Source: Bacteroidota bacterium
GTDB lineage: Bacteria; Bacteroidota; Ignavibacteria; Ignavibacteriales; SURF-24
Direction: 5' to 3'
NCBI GenBank assembly: GCA_030706145.1
Contig: JAUZPB010000008.1
Location: 1-64,000, forward strand
Length of the DNA: 64,000 bases
Notes under the pieces: generated by a model
What the model saw: the letters and a program-made list of their open reading frames with translations, nothing else
Told to the model about the DNA's origin: nothing
The model's database searches: none
Program-made: the position numbers and the translations under genes
Part shown: positions 6,693 to 52,870 of the stretch, one piece after another
Position numbering within the stretch: position 1 is the stretch's first letter
Layout: every line of letters begins with the position of its first letter

Positions 6693-6742
6693 AATGAAAT
6701 GGATTTTGTAAGTTGTTGGGTGAGGAAAAAAGAAGAGACAAA

Positions 6743-44391: not shown

Positions 44392-44430
44392 AAAGAGGGC
44401 CACTTTTTTTATCATGGCCCTCTTTTTTTA
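44392..44430 (+). terminator. Terminator of the aldo/keto reductase gene
   Basis: Perfect 11-bp stem AAAGAGGGCCA / TGGCCCTCTTT with a 12-nt loop followed by TTTTT. Confidence 0.88.
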
Positions 44431-44509
44431 TGTGTCTTTCCTTCCTTTGCACTCCTTTTCTTTAAGTCCTCCTCTTTTCTTTAGATCCCCCACTTCTTTA
44501 TTTGCCTGT

Positions 44510-44538
44510 TTGCTTTTGTGAAAATGCCGAGTTATATT
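44510..44538 (+). promoter_or_regulatory. Promoter of the mannose operon
   Basis: -35 TTGCTT (44510-44515), 17-nt spacer, -10 TATATT (44533-44538). The start site, expected near 44545, falls in the inverted repeat 44541-44572. Confidence 0.6.
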
Positions 44539-44540
44539 TC

Positions 44541-44572
44541 ATATGTTCATATGTATGGACATATGGACATAT
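44541..44572. promoter_or_regulatory. Inverted-repeat operator candidate for the GntR regulator
   Basis: ATATGTTCATATGT (44541-44554), ATGG, ACATATGGACATAT (44559-44572): 14-bp arms with one mismatch and a 4-bp centre. Each arm itself is a direct repeat of ATATGT(T/C)C, so up to four half-sites. It lies directly after the -10 box and 29 bp before the first gene. Confidence 0.65.
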
Positions 44573-44601
44573 TCGGTACTCATTAAAACGAAGGTAGATA
44601 T

Positions 44602-46017
44602 ATGAAAGATAGTAGTGCAAATCAGAATTCCGGAAAAGGGGACAGCTTTTTCCTTATAAGGACTTGTATAACTATTGCACTGGGAGGATTTTTATTTGGC
44701 TTTGATACAGCCGTAATTTCAGGCGTTATTGTTTTTCTAAAAAACAAATTTGTTCTTGACGCTTTTATGGAAGGCTGGCTCGTTAGTTCGGCTTTAATTG
44801 GCTGCCTGATTGGAGTGAGCTTTTCAGGAAAATTAAGTGACAAGTTTGGCCCAAGGAAAATATTGTTTCTGTCTGCCCTGTTCTTCCTTTTTTCAGCAAT
44901 TATTACGGCTTTATCGGACTCCTATATGGCTATAATCTGTGGAAGAATAATTGGAGGACTTGGCATCGGGGCTGCATCTATGCTTTCACCACTATTTATT
45001 TCTGAATTTTCTCCAAAATACCTTCGCGGAAGAATGGTCTCTCTATATCAGTTTGCAATTACTATTGGAATAGTTGCTGCTTATTTTTCCAATTCTTTTC
45101 TTCTTAATTTTTCACTCTCAGAAAATCACCTGGTAAATGGATTTGCAAGGCGATTGCTTGTCGATGAGGTCTGGCGCGGAATGTTTGGTACATTGATAAT
45201 TCCAGCTGCTTTATTTATACTTCTGCTTATCTTTATCTCTGAAAGTCCAAGGTGGCTTGCAAAAAAAGGAAAAGATAAACATGCCCTAGAAATTCTTAGC
45301 AGAGTTAACGGCAGAACTAATGCTGAAGAAGAAATATCTGTAATAAAAGAGTCAATTAAAAGTGAGAATGAATCTTTAAGACAGCTTCTTAAACCTGGCT
45401 TAAGAAAAGCTCTATTAATAGGACTTATTCTGCCATTTGCTTCACAGGCCTGCGGAATTAATGCAATTATATACTATGGCCCAAAAATATTCAAAGATGC
45501 CGGCTACGCCTTAAACGATGCATTTGGAACACAGGTTACAATTGGTTTAATGAACGTTTTCTTTACAACTTTGGCTATTTGGAAAGTAGATAAATTTGGA
45601 CGTAAACCGCTTCTTCTTTCTGGTATGGTGGGTGTATTTGTATCACTTGTCTTTATAGCTATAGCTTTCAACTTTTCAATATCAAACGGTATTTTACTTT
45701 TATCTTTCTTCCTCCTTTTTATAGCATGCTTTGCCTTCTCTTATGGACCTGTTGTCTGGATAATTATTGCAGAGATATTTCCAAATAGAATTAGAGGCCG
45801 GGCAATGTCAATTTCAACTTTCTCTCTTTGGTTTGCAAATATCATAATCGGCCAGTCTTTCCCATGGCTGCTGGAGAATCTTGGGCCAGCTGGTACATTT
45901 GCACTGTTTGCTCTGATCACTCTTCCAGCTACTATATTTGTATGGAAGGTTATTCCGGAGACCAAAGGAAAAACTCTTGAGGAGATTGAGATCTTTTTTT
46001 CTAAAAGCGCTATTTAA
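44602..46017 (+). CDS. Sugar porter (MFS), probable mannose/hexose importer
   Basis: 471 residues, 12 helices. Sugar-porter signatures are all there: GGFLFGFDTAVISG in helix 1, SDKFGPRK and VDKFGRKP loops, ISESPRWLAKKGK after helix 6, SQACGINAIIYYGP in helix 7 (substrate-binding QxxxxN region), GPVVWIIIAEIFPNRIRG and the C-terminal PETKGKTLEEIE. Sugar:H+ symport is typical. First gene of the operon with GntR, ROK kinase, mannose-6-phosphate isomerase and alpha-mannosidase, so mannose is the likely substrate (inference). Confidence 0.92.
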   Translation: MKDSSANQNSGKGDSFFLIRTCITIALGGFLFGFDTAVISGVIVFLKNKFVLDAFMEGWLVSSALIGCLIGVSFSGKLSDKFGPRKILFLSALFFLFSAIITALSDSYMAIICGRIIGGLGIGAASMLSPLFISEFSPKYLRGRMVSLYQFAITIGIVAAYFSNSFLLNFSLSENHLVNGFARRLLVDEVWRGMFGTLIIPAALFILLLIFISESPRWLAKKGKDKHALEILSRVNGRTNAEEEISVIKESIKSENESLRQLLKPGLRKALLIGLILPFASQACGINAIIYYGPKIFKDAGYALNDAFGTQVTIGLMNVFFTTLAIWKVDKFGRKPLLLSGMVGVFVSLVFIAIAFNFSISNGILLLSFFLLFIACFAFSYGPVVWIIIAEIFPNRIRGRAMSISTFSLWFANIIIGQSFPWLLENLGPAGTFALFALITLPATIFVWKVIPETKGKTLEEIEIFFSKSAI

Positions 46018-46056: not shown

Positions 46057-46794
46057 ATGAAATTGGAATTAAATCATGACAGCGAAATACCTCTGCATAT
46101 TCAGGTAGAGAATATAATTCGTGATCTGATAAAAAAGGATAATTATAAAAATGGAGAAATGCTTCCAAAAGAAGAGGACCTGGCAAAAAGATTTGCAGTC
46201 TCAAGAAACACTGTACGCCATGCCTTCGATAAATTGGTCTATGAAGGACTTTTAGTTAGAAAAAAAGGAAAAGGAACGACTGTTGCCTTGCAGACTGTTT
46301 CAACTAGACTTGATAGCTGGCTTAGCTTTACAAATGAAATGAAACTAAAGGGCATTGAAGTTAAAAACTATGAAATATCAACATCTTTAATTAAATGTAA
46401 TAGTGAGCTTGCTAAGACCTTTGATATACCAGAAGGAAAAGAAATACTTAAGCTAGTTCGCCTTCGTGGCACAGTTGAACGCCCAATTGTCTATTTTATA
46501 TCCTATTTCCATCCGCGCGTTGGACTAAAGGGGACAGAGGATTTTTCAGTTCCTCTATATCAGCTTCTTGAAAAAGAATGTTCTGTCGTTGCCTCTTTAT
46601 CCAGAGAAGAAATATCGGCCCAGAAAGCTGATAAGGAAATTGCAGCCAAACTTCTGCTAAAGCCTGGTGAGCCGGTGCTATTTAGAAAAAGACATGTCTA
46701 TGATCCAGGCAAAAGAATAATTGAATATAATCTTGGCTATTACAGGGCCGACAGTTTTACTTATTCAATAGACATTAAAAGAGAAAATATATGA
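46057..46794 (+). CDS. GntR/HutC-family regulator of the mannose operon
   Basis: 245 residues. N-terminal winged helix (about 10-75; PLHIQVENIIRDLIKKDNY, PKEEDLAKRFAVSRNTVRHA) and a UTRA ligand-binding domain (about 92-240; LVRLRGTVERPIVYFISYFH). HutC-type repressors usually bind a sugar phosphate or amino sugar derivative. Its ATGA overlap with the ROK kinase gene couples the two, and the strong inverted repeat over the operon promoter is its natural target, giving autoregulation. Confidence 0.92.
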   Translation: MKLELNHDSEIPLHIQVENIIRDLIKKDNYKNGEMLPKEEDLAKRFAVSRNTVRHAFDKLVYEGLLVRKKGKGTTVALQTVSTRLDSWLSFTNEMKLKGIEVKNYEISTSLIKCNSELAKTFDIPEGKEILKLVRLRGTVERPIVYFISYFHPRVGLKGTEDFSVPLYQLLEKECSVVASLSREEISAQKADKEIAAKLLLKPGEPVLFRKRHVYDPGKRIIEYNLGYYRADSFTYSIDIKRENI

Positions 46795-47747
46795 CCTCTG
46801 CAGCAGTAGACCTTGGTGGAACCAGGATAAAGCTAGGTCTTATTGAAGGCAGTAGCTTACAATATTTTAAGATAATTCCAGCCTCTCCGGAAAATGGACT
46901 TAAAGATCTTTTGCCTGAAATCAAAGGCCAAATATCTGAAGCTGTAGAGACTCTTGCACTAGACATTAAAGACTTATCTGGAATAGGAATCTCTTTCCCA
47001 GGTCTGGTTAATTCAAAAGAGAATAGAATACTTTCAGCCCCGGTTGCAAAATATTCAGATGCTGCTTCGCTTGACCTGAAAAAGTGGGCCTTAAAGAGTT
47101 TTGCTTTACCTATAGTAGTTGAAAATGATGCAAATATGGCACTATTAGGTGAGTGGAAATATGGCGCTGGAAAAGACTGTGATAATTTGGTGATGGTTAC
47201 TTTGGGAACAGGTATTGGCACATCTGTGATAATAAATGGGGAGCCGCTGCGCGGAGTGCATTTTCAGGCAGGATGTCTGGGTGGTCACTTTACTCTAGAT
47301 GCAAATGGTGATAAATGTATTTGTGGCAATTATGGATGTATTGAAATGCAGACCTCTAAAGGTGCACTTTTGAAGATGCTGAAATCTGAAAGAGAGATTA
47401 CAAATAGCAGCCTTTTCAATGAGAAAAAACCTGACTTTAAGAAGTTATTTGAGCATGCAAAACAAAAAGATGCACTGGCAAAGAAAATCCTTGGACATAT
47501 CTTAAAGATCTGGGGAATTGCACTTGTTAACCTTATTCATGCTTATGATCCTGAGAAAATAATTATTAGTGGTGGAATAATAGGAGCAGATTATCCCATT
47601 GTCCAAAAGTTACAGGAATTTGTCAATAAGCATGCGTGGACTCCCTGGGGAGAAGTTAAGATCGTAAAAGCTCTCAATCCTGATTCAGCTGCATTATTTG
47701 GAGCACATTTTAAGCTAAATGAGTTAATAATTAAAAAATCTTTATGA
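46791..47747 (+). CDS. ROK-family sugar kinase, probable mannokinase
   Basis: 318 residues. ATP-binding motif VDLGGTRIKLG at about 6-16, catalytic Asp113 (VENDANMALLGE), phosphate-2 region TLGTGIGTSVI at about 137-147, and the ROK zinc site His166, Cys176, Cys178, Cys183 (GHFTLD...CICGNYGC). It lacks a helix-turn-helix, so it is a kinase rather than a NagC-type repressor. Next to mannose-6-phosphate isomerase it most likely makes mannose-6-phosphate; glucose or fructose may also be accepted. Overlaps both neighbours by 4 bp. Confidence 0.9.
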   Translation: MTSAAVDLGGTRIKLGLIEGSSLQYFKIIPASPENGLKDLLPEIKGQISEAVETLALDIKDLSGIGISFPGLVNSKENRILSAPVAKYSDAASLDLKKWALKSFALPIVVENDANMALLGEWKYGAGKDCDNLVMVTLGTGIGTSVIINGEPLRGVHFQAGCLGGHFTLDANGDKCICGNYGCIEMQTSKGALLKMLKSEREITNSSLFNEKKPDFKKLFEHAKQKDALAKKILGHILKIWGIALVNLIHAYDPEKIIISGGIIGADYPIVQKLQEFVNKHAWTPWGEVKIVKALNPDSAALFGAHFKLNELIIKKSL

Positions 47748-49498
47748 ACACATCGTTTAATAAATATCCTTTCGTTTCTGTTAAGGGCTATGAGCATAGC
47801 TGCAAGGCAGGTTGGACTAATATACTTCTGGAACTAAGCTTGGCCCTTAATAACATTTCAAAAAGTAAAAAGATAATAACAATTGAATGCTATACGGGGG
47901 TCTATGAAAGTAAACTTCTTGAAGCAATTTCCGAAAATCTTAAACCTGCACTAACAATACTTAGCAAAGATGCCTTTAAGTCCGAAATGGAGATACGTCA
48001 AATAGTATCAAAGGATCTCTCAGATGATCCGGTCTTCGGTAAACTGACTTCACTTACCTTTGATGACTATTTCGACAAAGAAAAATTTCAGGCTTTAAGA
48101 CGAAAGATCTTAAATGTACAAGAAGGAATAATCTTGGTCTTGGGTACGGGAGCTTCCTTATTAGCAGAAGATAGCGACATTCTCATATATGCAGATATGC
48201 CCAGATGGGAAATACAGCAAAGGTTCAGAAAAAACCTTGCAGGGAATTTAGGCGTTTGCAATAATAGTGATCAGCCTGCATTAAAGTATAAATGGGCTTT
48301 TTTTATTGACTGGCGCCTATGTGATACTCTGAAGAAAAATGTATTTCTTAAAGCGGATTATTTCCTTGATACTACACTTTCTGAAGTGCCTAAAATTTTG
48401 GATGCAGAAGCTCTAAAAGATGCACTTCATCAGACATCTAAAGGTCCATTTTCAGTAGTGCCTTTTTTTGACCCTGGACCATGGGGTGGGCAATGGATGA
48501 AGAAGGTTTGTGACCTTGATAAAAATGTGCCGAACTTTGCTTGGTGTTTTAATTGTGTCCCTGAAGAAAATAGCCTGCTCTTAAAATTCGGAAATGAGCT
48601 TTTTGAAACTCCCTCAATTAATCTGGTATTCTTTAAGCCAAAAGAGCTGCTTGGTGATTTTATATACAACAAATTTGGAGCAGAATTCCCTATCCGTTTT
48701 GATTACCTCGATACAATTGATGGTGGTAACCTTAGCCTTCAGGTTCATCCTCTTACAGAATATATAAAAGAAAAATTCAACTGGCCTTACACTCAGGATG
48801 AAAGTTATTATATCATGGATGCAAAACCAGGGGCAAGTGTTTATCTTGGACTAAAAGACAATATAAACAAAGACTCTATGAGGGCTGCCCTTTTAAGGGC
48901 TGAAAAGGGCAAGAATGAATTTCAAGCAGATAAATATGTCGAAAAATGGCAGGCTAAAAAACACGACCATTTCCTGATACCTGCAGGTACAGTTCACTGT
49001 TCTGGAAAAGATTCACTTGTACTTGAAATAAGTTCGACTCCATACATCTTTACCTTTAAGCTTTGGGACTGGGCTAGAAATGGACTTGATGGCAAACCTA
49101 GGCCTACACATATTGAACATGGCCTGAATGTAATACAGTTTAACAGAACTGCAAAATGGACAAAGGAAAATCTAATTAACCGCTTTGTAACCCTATCTGA
49201 ATCTAGTGGATGCAAAGAAGAAAAGACAGGTCTTCATGAACTTGAGTTCATAGAGACCAGAAGACATACATTTTCAAATAAAGTCCTGCATAATACTCAT
49301 GGCACTGTAAACGTACTTACACTTGTTGATGGTGCAGAAGCCATTGTAGAAAGCCCTGACTTATTTTTTGAACCCTTCATTGTAAGATATGGCGAAACAT
49401 TTATTGTTCCGGCTTCTGTGGGAGAATATACAATATCACCCTATGGAATTTCAGAAGGTAAAATCTGTATGACTATGAAAGCTTTTGTAAGAGAATAA
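47744..49498 (+). CDS. manA: Long-form class I mannose-6-phosphate isomerase with N-terminal kinase-like domain
   Basis: 584 residues, against about 310-400 for ordinary type I enzymes. The C-terminal part (from about 232) is the cupin isomerase: zinc ligands Gln333 and His335 (LSLQVHPLTEY), Glu353 (QDESYYIM) and His418 (IPAGTVHCSG). It interconverts mannose-6-phosphate and fructose-6-phosphate. The N-terminal ~225 residues look like a degenerate nucleoside/uridine-kinase-like P-loop protein: strands IITIECYTG and IILVLGTGASLL, then IYADMPRWEIQQRFRKN, but no GxxxxGK(S/T) Walker A is seen, so ATP binding is doubtful. It may be structural or regulatory. Overlaps the ROK kinase gene by 4 bp (ATGA), so strictly co-translated. 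Confidence 0.85.
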   Translation: MNTSFNKYPFVSVKGYEHSCKAGWTNILLELSLALNNISKSKKIITIECYTGVYESKLLEAISENLKPALTILSKDAFKSEMEIRQIVSKDLSDDPVFGKLTSLTFDDYFDKEKFQALRRKILNVQEGIILVLGTGASLLAEDSDILIYADMPRWEIQQRFRKNLAGNLGVCNNSDQPALKYKWAFFIDWRLCDTLKKNVFLKADYFLDTTLSEVPKILDAEALKDALHQTSKGPFSVVPFFDPGPWGGQWMKKVCDLDKNVPNFAWCFNCVPEENSLLLKFGNELFETPSINLVFFKPKELLGDFIYNKFGAEFPIRFDYLDTIDGGNLSLQVHPLTEYIKEKFNWPYTQDESYYIMDAKPGASVYLGLKDNINKDSMRAALLRAEKGKNEFQADKYVEKWQAKKHDHFLIPAGTVHCSGKDSLVLEISSTPYIFTFKLWDWARNGLDGKPRPTHIEHGLNVIQFNRTAKWTKENLINRFVTLSESSGCKEEKTGLHELEFIETRRHTFSNKVLHNTHGTVNVLTLVDGAEAIVESPDLFFEPFIVRYGETFIVPASVGEYTISPYGISEGKICMTMKAFVRE

Positions 49499-49522: not shown

Positions 49523-52500
49523 ATGAAAAAGATCTTCTGTACATCTTTCATCTTGCTATCGGTTTTGTCTTTCTGTGGCTATTCGGCGGCCGTCCCGAAA
49601 AGCTCAAAGAAAGTTAAGTATCTGCAGGGCTATTCCCGCGCTATCATAGGTGGGGGATTTTCATATCACTCACCAAATCCTTCTATTAATGATGCCCTTC
49701 TTGTAAGGGCAAATAAACTGCTTAATAAGATCGAATGGGAAAGTGAAATAGTCCCAAATGATTACAAAGGGAAAACCATTAGCTTCATCTGGCTATTTGC
49801 AATATCAAGGGATAATATTGACCGTAAGTTTCATATGAAAATAGGTGATAAATTCTCTTTTGACTTTAAAAATGACCTTGGAAGAAAACTAGGGCAGTGG
49901 AGCATTAAGGGAGTAAATGGTTCAAAGCTGACATTTAAGGCAACTATGGCAGACCAAAATGATGACCTTATGGGTATAGCTATAGTTGAACTTCCGGCTA
50001 AAGAAGTGGAAAAGGGAAAACCTTTAAGCTTTACTGTTGAGGGTGAAGATGCACAGAGCCAGGAATGGTATATGACTTTCCAGGGAGAGGTAAAAGAAAA
50101 AGTAGATCTTTACCAGACTGATTGTGTTTCTAAAGAAGGCAACAAAGAATTTCAGAGCATAGGCCTGGAAGTTTTCCATATTGGCAGTAAGGAAAAATTA
50201 GCTGTATCGTTAGATGATGGATCTATCTTAAATGATTATCTTCAGGAAGGCAATAACAGATTTAATATAAATATCCCAAGGCTATTCAAAGATAAAGATC
50301 TTAAAGCAAAGGTAAAGATAGGGAAAGATATTGTAGAAAAAACTATTCATATTAGACCCGTCAAAGAAATGACAGTTTTCATTCTTCCTCATTCACATAC
50401 TGATATTGGTTATACAGCCATACAGACAGAAATTGAAGAAAAACAGATGCAGAACCTAAAAAAGGGTATTGAGTTTGCAAAAAAAACAGCAAACTACCCT
50501 GAAGGCTCCAGGTTTGTCTGGAATGTAGAGGTATTGTGGGCTGCTGACCTCTATTTAAAGAGAATGAGTGAAAAAGACAAAGAGGATTTTTTTGATGCTG
50601 TAAAAAAAGGTTATGTGGCATTAAATGGAATGTATCTTAACGTTTTGACTGGACTGTGCCGCCCTGAAGAGCTATTAAGACTATTTAAATATTCTACTGA
50701 ACTTGAGAATAAATGCAATACAAAGATCGATGCTGCCATGACAAGCGATATCCCTGGAAATACATGGGGCAGCGTTACGGCTATGGCAGAGGCAGGTATT
50801 AAATATTTTTCGACTGCACCAAACAGTTTTGACCGCATAGGAGATATTCTGGTTAAATGGGAAAATAAACCTTTTTACTGGTCCTCTCCTTCAGGAAAAG
50901 AAAAAGTCTTGGTCTGGATACCTTATAAAGGCTACGCACTGTCTCATGCAATGAAGGGGCTCAATGATTCATTTATCTCCGAATATATGAACATTCTGGC
51001 AAATGAAAATTATCCCTATGATATTTCTTATATTCGCTGGAGCGGACATGGTGATAATGCAGTTCCGGAGATTGAAGTTTCTGATTTTGTTAAACAATGG
51101 AACTCGAAATATATCTGGCCCAGACTTGTCATCTCATCTGCAAGCAATGCATTTAAGAGCTTTGAAAATAAATACGGCGATAAACTACCTGTAATAAAGG
51201 GGGACTGGACACCTTACTGGGAAGATGGAGCAGGATCCTCAGCCCTGGAAACTGCAATGAATAGAGCTAGTTCTGATAGGCTCACTCAAGCTGAAGCCTT
51301 ATGGGCAATGTTAAATCCAAAGGATTATCCGGCAAATGAATTTGATGAGGCTTGGAAAAAGGTTCTGCTTTACTCAGAGCATACCTGGGGAGCATGGTGC
51401 AGCGTCTCTGATCCAGAGAGTAAAATGACAAAAGAGCAGTGGGATATAAAGCAGTCTTATGCTCTTCAGGCTGATAAACAATCCCACATGCTTCTGCAAA
51501 AATCCTTTGATCATTTGGAAAATAATAATTCTTTTATTGACGTCTTTAATACAGCATCATGGACACGCTCAGAAATTGTCGTGGTCTCAAAAGAGCTCTC
51601 CTCAATAGGCGACAAGGTAACAAACCTTGATGGTACACCTGTTGCTTCGCAAAGACTTTCTGATGGAACTCTCGCTGTTATGATAAAGGATATACCTCCA
51701 TTTTCATCAAGAAGAATTAAGATCGAAAAGGGGGATGCTTTTTCTGAAGGTCAAGTTTCAGTAAATGGTAATATAATTGATAATGGAATTGTCAGGGTAA
51801 AAGTTGACAAAACTAATGGTACAATAACTGAACTTAATTATAATGGTGTTGATGGAAACTTTGCTGATAATAAGAATGGTTATGGCCTTAATTGTTTTCT
51901 TTATCTGCCGGGAGAAAAACTTTCAGATGTAAAACAGGATAGTAATATAAAAATTTCAATAGGGGAGAAAGGACCACTTGTAGCATCTCTTATTGTTGAG
52001 TCTGAAGCTCCATCTTGTAATAAGCTTACCCGCGAAGTCAAACTTACGGCCGGCCAGGACAGAATTGATATAATAAATACGATCGACAAAAAAAGAGCTG
52101 AGATTAGTCCTATTGCAGGTGACGGTGCTTTTGCTCAGAAAGGCGGAAAGGAAAGCCTGAATTTTGCATTCCCATTTAATGTAATTGATGGGAAAATAAA
52201 AATGGATATTCCTCTTGGCATAATGCAACCGGAAAAGGATCAGATGCCAAGCGCATGCAAAAATTGGCTTACAGTTAGTAGATGGGTGGATGTATCAAAT
52301 GATAACTCTGGAATTATCTGGGCTACACCTGATGCTCCGCTTCTGCAGATTGGTGAGCTATCTGCAAACCTTACAGGCTCGCAGACCAATCCGGATGTTT
52401 GGAGAAAGACAATTAAGCCAAGTCAGAGCATTTTCTCCTGGGTGATGAATAATCACTGGAGTACTAACTACAGGGCTTACCAGGAAGGAATTGTCACCTT

Positions 52501-52870
52501 TCGTTATGCACTAAAACCCCATAAGGAGTTCTCTGGGGCAGAAGCCTCAAAGCTTGCTATATCTGTAAGTCAACCTCTGATTGCTCTTCAGGCAAAGAAA
52601 CAAAAAACCGACCTGCCTTTACTAAAGGTTGGACCTGAAGATCTAATTGTTACTTCACTAAAGCCAAGTGATGATAAAAGGGCAGTAATGATCAGTATTT
52701 TTAATTGCTCTGACAAAAAAGAAAAAGTTCAGATTAACTGGCCCAATGAAGGCGTAAAACCCAAATCGATTTGGTTAAGTAATACATCAGAAGAACAGTT
52801 ATCTCCCATTGCAGATCCCGAAATTTCACCAATGGACCTGCTTATTCTGAGAGCTGAGCTTTACAATTGA
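49523..52870 (+). CDS. Exported GH38 alpha-mannosidase
   Basis: 1115 residues. Signal peptide about 1-22 (LSVLSFCGYSAA; the lipobox is poor). The first ~280 residues are a beta-rich domain I cannot name. The GH38 catalytic core then starts: metal ligands His292 and Asp294 (PHSHTDIGYT), nucleophile and ligand Asp409 (MTSDIPGNTWG), late His620 (YSEHTWGAW); the C-terminal third is the beta-sandwich region of the family. It would release mannose from alpha-mannosides outside the cytoplasmic membrane. Last gene of the mannose operon, 24 bp after the isomerase, ended by a shared terminator. Confidence 0.92.
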   Translation: MKKIFCTSFILLSVLSFCGYSAAVPKSSKKVKYLQGYSRAIIGGGFSYHSPNPSINDALLVRANKLLNKIEWESEIVPNDYKGKTISFIWLFAISRDNIDRKFHMKIGDKFSFDFKNDLGRKLGQWSIKGVNGSKLTFKATMADQNDDLMGIAIVELPAKEVEKGKPLSFTVEGEDAQSQEWYMTFQGEVKEKVDLYQTDCVSKEGNKEFQSIGLEVFHIGSKEKLAVSLDDGSILNDYLQEGNNRFNINIPRLFKDKDLKAKVKIGKDIVEKTIHIRPVKEMTVFILPHSHTDIGYTAIQTEIEEKQMQNLKKGIEFAKKTANYPEGSRFVWNVEVLWAADLYLKRMSEKDKEDFFDAVKKGYVALNGMYLNVLTGLCRPEELLRLFKYSTELENKCNTKIDAAMTSDIPGNTWGSVTAMAEAGIKYFSTAPNSFDRIGDILVKWENKPFYWSSPSGKEKVLVWIPYKGYALSHAMKGLNDSFISEYMNILANENYPYDISYIRWSGHGDNAVPEIEVSDFVKQWNSKYIWPRLVISSASNAFKSFENKYGDKLPVIKGDWTPYWEDGAGSSALETAMNRASSDRLTQAEALWAMLNPKDYPANEFDEAWKKVLLYSEHTWGAWCSVSDPESKMTKEQWDIKQSYALQADKQSHMLLQKSFDHLENNNSFIDVFNTASWTRSEIVVVSKELSSIGDKVTNLDGTPVASQRLSDGTLAVMIKDIPPFSSRRIKIEKGDAFSEGQVSVNGNIIDNGIVRVKVDKTNGTITELNYNGVDGNFADNKNGYGLNCFLYLPGEKLSDVKQDSNIKISIGEKGPLVASLIVESEAPSCNKLTREVKLTAGQDRIDIINTIDKKRAEISPIAGDGAFAQKGGKESLNFAFPFNVIDGKIKMDIPLGIMQPEKDQMPSACKNWLTVSRWVDVSNDNSGIIWATPDAPLLQIGELSANLTGSQTNPDVWRKTIKPSQSIFSWVMNNHWSTNYRAYQEGIVTFRYALKPHKEFSGAEASKLAISVSQPLIALQAKKQKTDLPLLKVGPEDLIVTSLKPSDDKRAVMISIFNCSDKKEKVQINWPNEGVKPKSIWLSNTSEEQLSPIADPEISPMDLLILRAELYN

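Follow-up and report, generated by a model that had tools for sequence, protein, structure and literature searches.

The inverted repeat at positions 44541–44572 of the window (the whole 64,000-nucleotide stretch of DNA analysed here) is very probably the operator of the GntR regulator encoded by the second gene of the operon behind it, a prediction drawn from the comparison of related loci. Sequence comparison establishes the motif, its position, and its linkage to the orthologous regulator; from these we infer that the regulator binds and represses, that it uses the outer half-sites, and what the inducer is. Taken as a whole, we hold with considerable confidence that the best explanation is a GntR operator at which the repressor would sterically block transcription, with help from outer half-sites and with release by a sugar phosphate. 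The promoter elements, half-sites, and operon genes are as follows.

44510–44512, + strand: TTG of the promoter −33 element, placed by its fixed distance to the outer half-site
44533–44540, + strand: −7 element TAtaTTTc, one mismatch to TAnnTTTG, from the sequence and the 12-locus alignment
44541–44546, + strand: left outer half-site ATATGT, from the sequence, arm pairing, and offset-8 enrichment in related sites
44549–44564, no strand: core operator ATATGT-ATGG-ACATAT (GT-N4-AC), from the sequence and from 146-genome and 93-locus conservation
44567–44572, − strand: right outer half-site, ACATAT on the + strand, from the sequence, arm pairing, and offset-8 enrichment
44602–46017, + strand: MFS sugar porter, first operon gene (Pfam PF00083, E 2.4e-117)
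46057–46794, + strand: GntR/HutC regulator, the proposed binder, second gene (PF00392, E 4.1e-18; UTRA, PF07702, E 3.9e-28; NagR/YvoA structure match, E 7.1e-26)
46791–47747, + strand: ROK sugar kinase (PF00480, E 1.9e-53)
47744–49498, + strand: mannose-6-phosphate isomerase-like protein (residues 233–465 match PDB 1qwr, E 1.1e-8)
49523–52870, + strand: GH38 alpha-mannosidase-like protein (PF01074, E 1.1e-14)

The repeat reads ATATGTTC ATATGT ATGG ACATAT GGACATAT, and its letters contain four half-sites (ATATGT/ACATAT) that start at 44541, 44549, 44559, and 44567. The two arms (44541–44554 and 44559–44572) are 14 nt long, enclose a 4-nt spacer and are complementary at 13 of 14 positions, so that the 14-4-14 inverted repeat with one mismatch described in an earlier note on this DNA is real. 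That note had given the feature the span 44510–44572, of which the repeat itself occupies 44541–44572 and the promoter stretch 44510–44540. It had also placed two copies of ATATGT(T/C)C in each arm; ATATGT does occur four times, but the longer form is present in only three of the copies, the inner left one being ATATGTAT. The GT-ATGG-AC at 44553–44560 follows the GT-N4-AC operator rule of HutC regulators, for which the published norm, in the parts of the sources available to us, is this spacing and usually one palindrome. The region is best read as a core palindrome with one further half-site 8 bp outward on each side.

The palindrome alone is not decisive, since its rarity in 64 kb is only moderate. 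With 14-nt arms, one mismatch or none and loops of 0–10, the window has inverted repeats at four places (seven listed entries), compared with between 0 and 3 entries apiece for 12 Markov sequences of window length. The complete four-half-site pattern is far more specific to this locus. A search for further repeats in the 5.34-Mb genome, which the earlier note had suggested, returned this single place at up to three mismatches, with none for the reversed control. Two other measures were discarded as uninformative, namely the genome-wide count of the 14-mer at 2 mismatches (128 forward matches vs 92 in the control) and the bare core at 1 mismatch, which is present in 145 of 146 genomes and does not serve as a marker.

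The main support for a GntR operator comes from the linkage of the site to the regulator. We searched 146 genomes, the window's own included, for the GntR protein and found a close orthologue (E ≤ 2.4e-84) in 13. In a set of 146 genomes selected likewise, the core plus one outer half-site, a pattern composed post hoc after an earlier result, was found at ≤1 mismatch in 15 genomes, comprising all 13 with the close orthologue and 2 of the 133 without it (G034, G053); the reversed pattern was found in 2 of 146 (G098, G139). Ten of the 13 orthologue genomes have the site ≤80 bp upstream of gntR, and two (the window and G138) have it at the MFS promoter with gntR next; in the remaining one (G109) it is on contigs other than that of gntR. 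We then had 93 loci in total with 80 further orthologue loci from named Bacteroidota, the best 80 of 197. Of these 93, 44 have a strict site (core ≥11/12 together with an outer ACAT or ATGT free of mismatches) vs none for the reversed pattern, and 85 have a loose site vs 7. Counting against the operator reading, 49 of the 93 loci lack a strict site and 8 lack even a loose one, and several Dyadobacter loci have the site roughly 190 to 350 bp past the end of gntR and not upstream of it. The best site per locus was picked by core score, ties being settled by the outer score, which carries a slight bias toward offset 8; this bias is absent from the four-half-site genome search, the 146-genome search, and the 93-locus strict and loose counts. 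The claim of the earlier note that the repeat is a GntR operator is strongly supported by conservation of the site beside GntR orthologues, the comparison by which it had proposed to refute the claim. A quick-method tree joins the window to locus L151, but with two branches this long we place no weight on the grouping.

Bacteroidota promoters are of a type with a TTG −33 element and a TAnnTTTG −7 element. The stretch 44510–44540 fits this type as TTG-N20-TAtaTTTc, and a sigma-70 promoter scan called none there at its threshold. Across 12 aligned loci (11 same-order relatives and the window), a TAnnTTTG-like box ends 0–1 nt before the outer half-site in 7, window included, a count reached by none of 20000 random placements. 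Likewise, 7 of the 12, again with the window, have a TTG 31–33 nt ahead of the outer half-site, and none of 20000 random offsets reached 7; L149 was left out of the TTG scoring because it meets a contig end, though the box alignment shows a TTG there. A both-strand TAnnTTTG tally over 42 sites was set aside because it is contaminated by the motif's own TATGTTTG, and the 12-locus comparison, which lies outside the motif, was used instead. The promoter proposed in the earlier note fits Bacteroidota-type elements at a conserved distance. With the operator placed directly after the −7 element, steric block is a fitting mode of repression.

The assignment of the regulator to the HutC type holds, as both the GntR winged-helix and UTRA domains were found. 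In alignment with NagR, the equivalent of Arg48, which contacts the G of GT in NagR (PMC4333415), is Arg in 93 of 93 orthologues. The position of NagR Arg38 is Val in 79 of the 93 and Glu in the window protein alone; that the window operator nevertheless matches those of its relatives counts against the operator reading. The genome encodes only two UTRA regulators, and the second, at C324:73055, lies outside the window. From reading the ORFs, we take its neighbors to be ECF-transporter-like genes. Upstream of this second regulator and 10 other paralogues, none of the 11 regions reaches a core score of 10.

The outer half-sites were examined in 42 non-redundant sites, obtained from the 93 loci by dropping 39 with a core below 11 and then 12 of the remaining 54 that were >75% identical to a kept site; the core columns of this set are conserved through selection (≥11/12), and only the outer columns count as evidence. 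Of the 42 sites, 28 have an exact additional half-site at offset 8 (22 right, 10 left, 4 both), whereas any other offset from 5 to 24 is occupied in at most 4, and that maximum falls at 16, another multiple of 8. This enrichment among related sites argues that the outer half-sites in the window are not due to chance. It also weighs against the possibility, which we rate as appreciable though not the favored one, that the core dimer alone matters, the outer half-sites being relics or weak auxiliary boxes. Such a reading is in keeping with the usual single palindrome of HutC regulators and with the 14 of 42 sites that have no exact outer half-site; most related sites keep just one, and only four keep both. 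It fits poorly with the preference for offsets 8 and 16 and with the third repeat at 16, in the same 8-bp phase, in five loci (L081, L083, L087, L109, and L137). The 32 bp offer a single GT-N4-AC pair, which rules out the same mode of binding for a second dimer. Two dimers binding cooperatively on the four half-sites, as the earlier note had proposed, are possible. More broadly, we put forward only tentatively, and with some doubt, that a HutC clade of Bacteroidota may read 8-bp-stepped arrays of three, four or more half-sites per operator and may assemble several dimers without a NanR-like extension, the array having stayed with the regulator while the pathway under it changed, being mannose use at some loci and an ABC importer with sugar-acid breakdown at others.

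The repeat could instead work in the transcript, as a hairpin in the 5' leader affecting mRNA stability, translation or termination, and 44541–44601 does fold into a 13-pair stem (−16.1 kcal/mol, z −3.4, none of 200 shuffles as good). Any near-perfect palindrome is expected to fold, however, a requirement for a long stem would not leave most relatives with only one outer half-site, the Rfam search gave no match, and the motif tracks the regulator orthologue and not a leader; we regard this role as highly improbable. Nearly as improbable is binding by a different regulator, either a Crp-like protein or the genome's other HutC regulator. The Crp-like motif predicted in Bacteroides (TATGTTnTAnAACATA, from a source available in part) has similar half-sites, but it spaces TATGT and ACATA by 6 nt, compared with 4 here, and the loci of the second UTRA regulator and the 10 other paralogues are without such an upstream motif. 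The site goes together with orthologues of the GntR encoded in the operon itself, which is the binder we favor.

In the mechanism we propose, the GntR/HutC repressor made from the second operon gene would occupy the repeat as its operator. One dimer on the core ATATGT-N4-ACATAT would block RNA polymerase, since the expected start site falls within the operator, which immediately follows the −7 element. DNA-binding domains of further repressor subunits would dock on the outer half-sites, set at a constant distance of 8 bp, and thereby strengthen binding. A phosphorylated sugar derived from the imported substrate, probably mannose-6-phosphate, would bind the UTRA domain and release the repressor, and the release would induce the whole operon, the regulator gene included.

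The predicted binding pocket bears on the identity of this inducer. NagR holds phosphate with Thr90, Arg133, Arg135, and Tyr167 and contacts the sugar with Glu145 (PMC4333415). The phosphate residues correspond to T92, R135, R137, and Y168 of the window protein, and among the 93 orthologues Arg133 is kept in 91, Arg135 in 89, Tyr167 in 93, and Thr or Ser at 90 in 92. Glu145 is not kept, being Phe in 93 of 93, which makes GlcNAc-6-phosphate unlikely as the effector. The residue pattern favors a phosphorylated sugar other than GlcNAc-6-phosphate, and mannose-6-phosphate is the natural candidate for the predicted inducer.

Mannose, the sugar named in the earlier note, fits the predicted families of the operon (porter, ROK kinase, isomerase-like protein, and GH38), but same-order orthologues with the same operator adjoin another sugar pathway. 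Pathway labels rest on the stretch fetched per locus and are lower bounds: an isomerase homologue lies within it at at least 52 of 93 loci, and at least 11 loci instead have relatives of an ABC importer and/or a set of enolase-superfamily, FAH-hydrolase, and lactonase genes. The NagR phosphate residues are nearly unchanged at the 11 alternative loci. In L143 (1202–6815 and 6997–14090), and likewise in L144, the orthologous gntR heads an operon with an ABC importer and a TonB receptor, divergent from SDR, enolase-superfamily, lactonase-like, and FAH genes. We presume that the enolase-superfamily, FAH, and lactonase genes together look like a pathway that oxidizes a deoxy sugar, for example L-fucose. 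Judged by predicted gene content, this is a pathway swap under one regulator in same-order relatives, and the operator has followed the regulator, not the pathway. The inducer claim is weakened by the occurrence of the same operator, within the same order, beside an ABC importer and often with a sugar-acid pathway. The isomerase-like protein of the window gave no match in the Pfam and NCBIfam searches; about 230 N-terminal residues precede the part that matches 1qwr, and homologues of similar length are widespread among the orthologue loci.

A GntR mannose regulator and extra half-sites beside GntR sites are both already in print; the sources below were available in part, and the comparisons apply to those parts. 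ManR (BT2103) of Bacteroides thetaiotaomicron is a GntR mannose regulator predicted by comparative genomics (PMC3878776), the sole pertinent title in our literature search on such regulators. Its regulon covers mannose uptake, conversion to fructose-6-phosphate, and alpha-mannosidases, and the matching porter, kinase, and isomerase families are all present here by prediction. Unlike that regulon, ours is one operon with GH38, and the likeness is one of description. Additional weaker half-sites 7–12 nt from the center, on one or both sides, were described for 23 orthologous groups, 4 of them HutC (PMC4494728), whereas in the present site the spacing is exactly 8 bp and the outer copies match the half-site as fully as the core does. 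The SdhR operator (HutC subfamily; PMC4494728) is likewise a palindrome with nested symmetry, but of other sequence and for another pathway. NagR/YvoA of Bacillus subtilis (PMC4333415) shares the domain make-up, the Arg for the G of GT, and the phosphate pocket residues; it differs in its single palindromic sites and in Arg38 and Glu145, which are not kept here. NanR of Escherichia coli is a GntR-type repressor of which several dimers bind cooperatively on stepped repeats, but it is a FadR-type relative that uses direct repeats only and has a 32-residue N-terminal extension (PMC8012715). The window GntR domain is matched from residue 16, which leaves no such extension. A search on GntR operators with two dimers gave no pertinent GntR case among the matches listed. 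The survey in PMC4494728 includes one Bacteroidetes HutC regulator and, in the part available, leaves the function of extra half-sites open. Our analysis thus predicts a regulator–operator pair for a mannose operon in a phylum with a single HutC regulator in that survey, and offers an unusually clean four-half-site case for the question of what extra half-sites do beside GntR operators.

Other inverted repeats lie around the operon. In the gap that separates the operator from the aldo/keto reductase gene, 44392–44431 holds an 11-nt inverted repeat without mismatch (AAAGAGGGCCA / TGGCCCTCTTT) and, after it, a T run; together they look like an intrinsic terminator beyond the loop limit of the search tool. 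The other near-perfect 14-nt inverted repeats of the window are at 6742, 43260, and 52946; the last, 3' of the GH38 gene, is a possible terminator.
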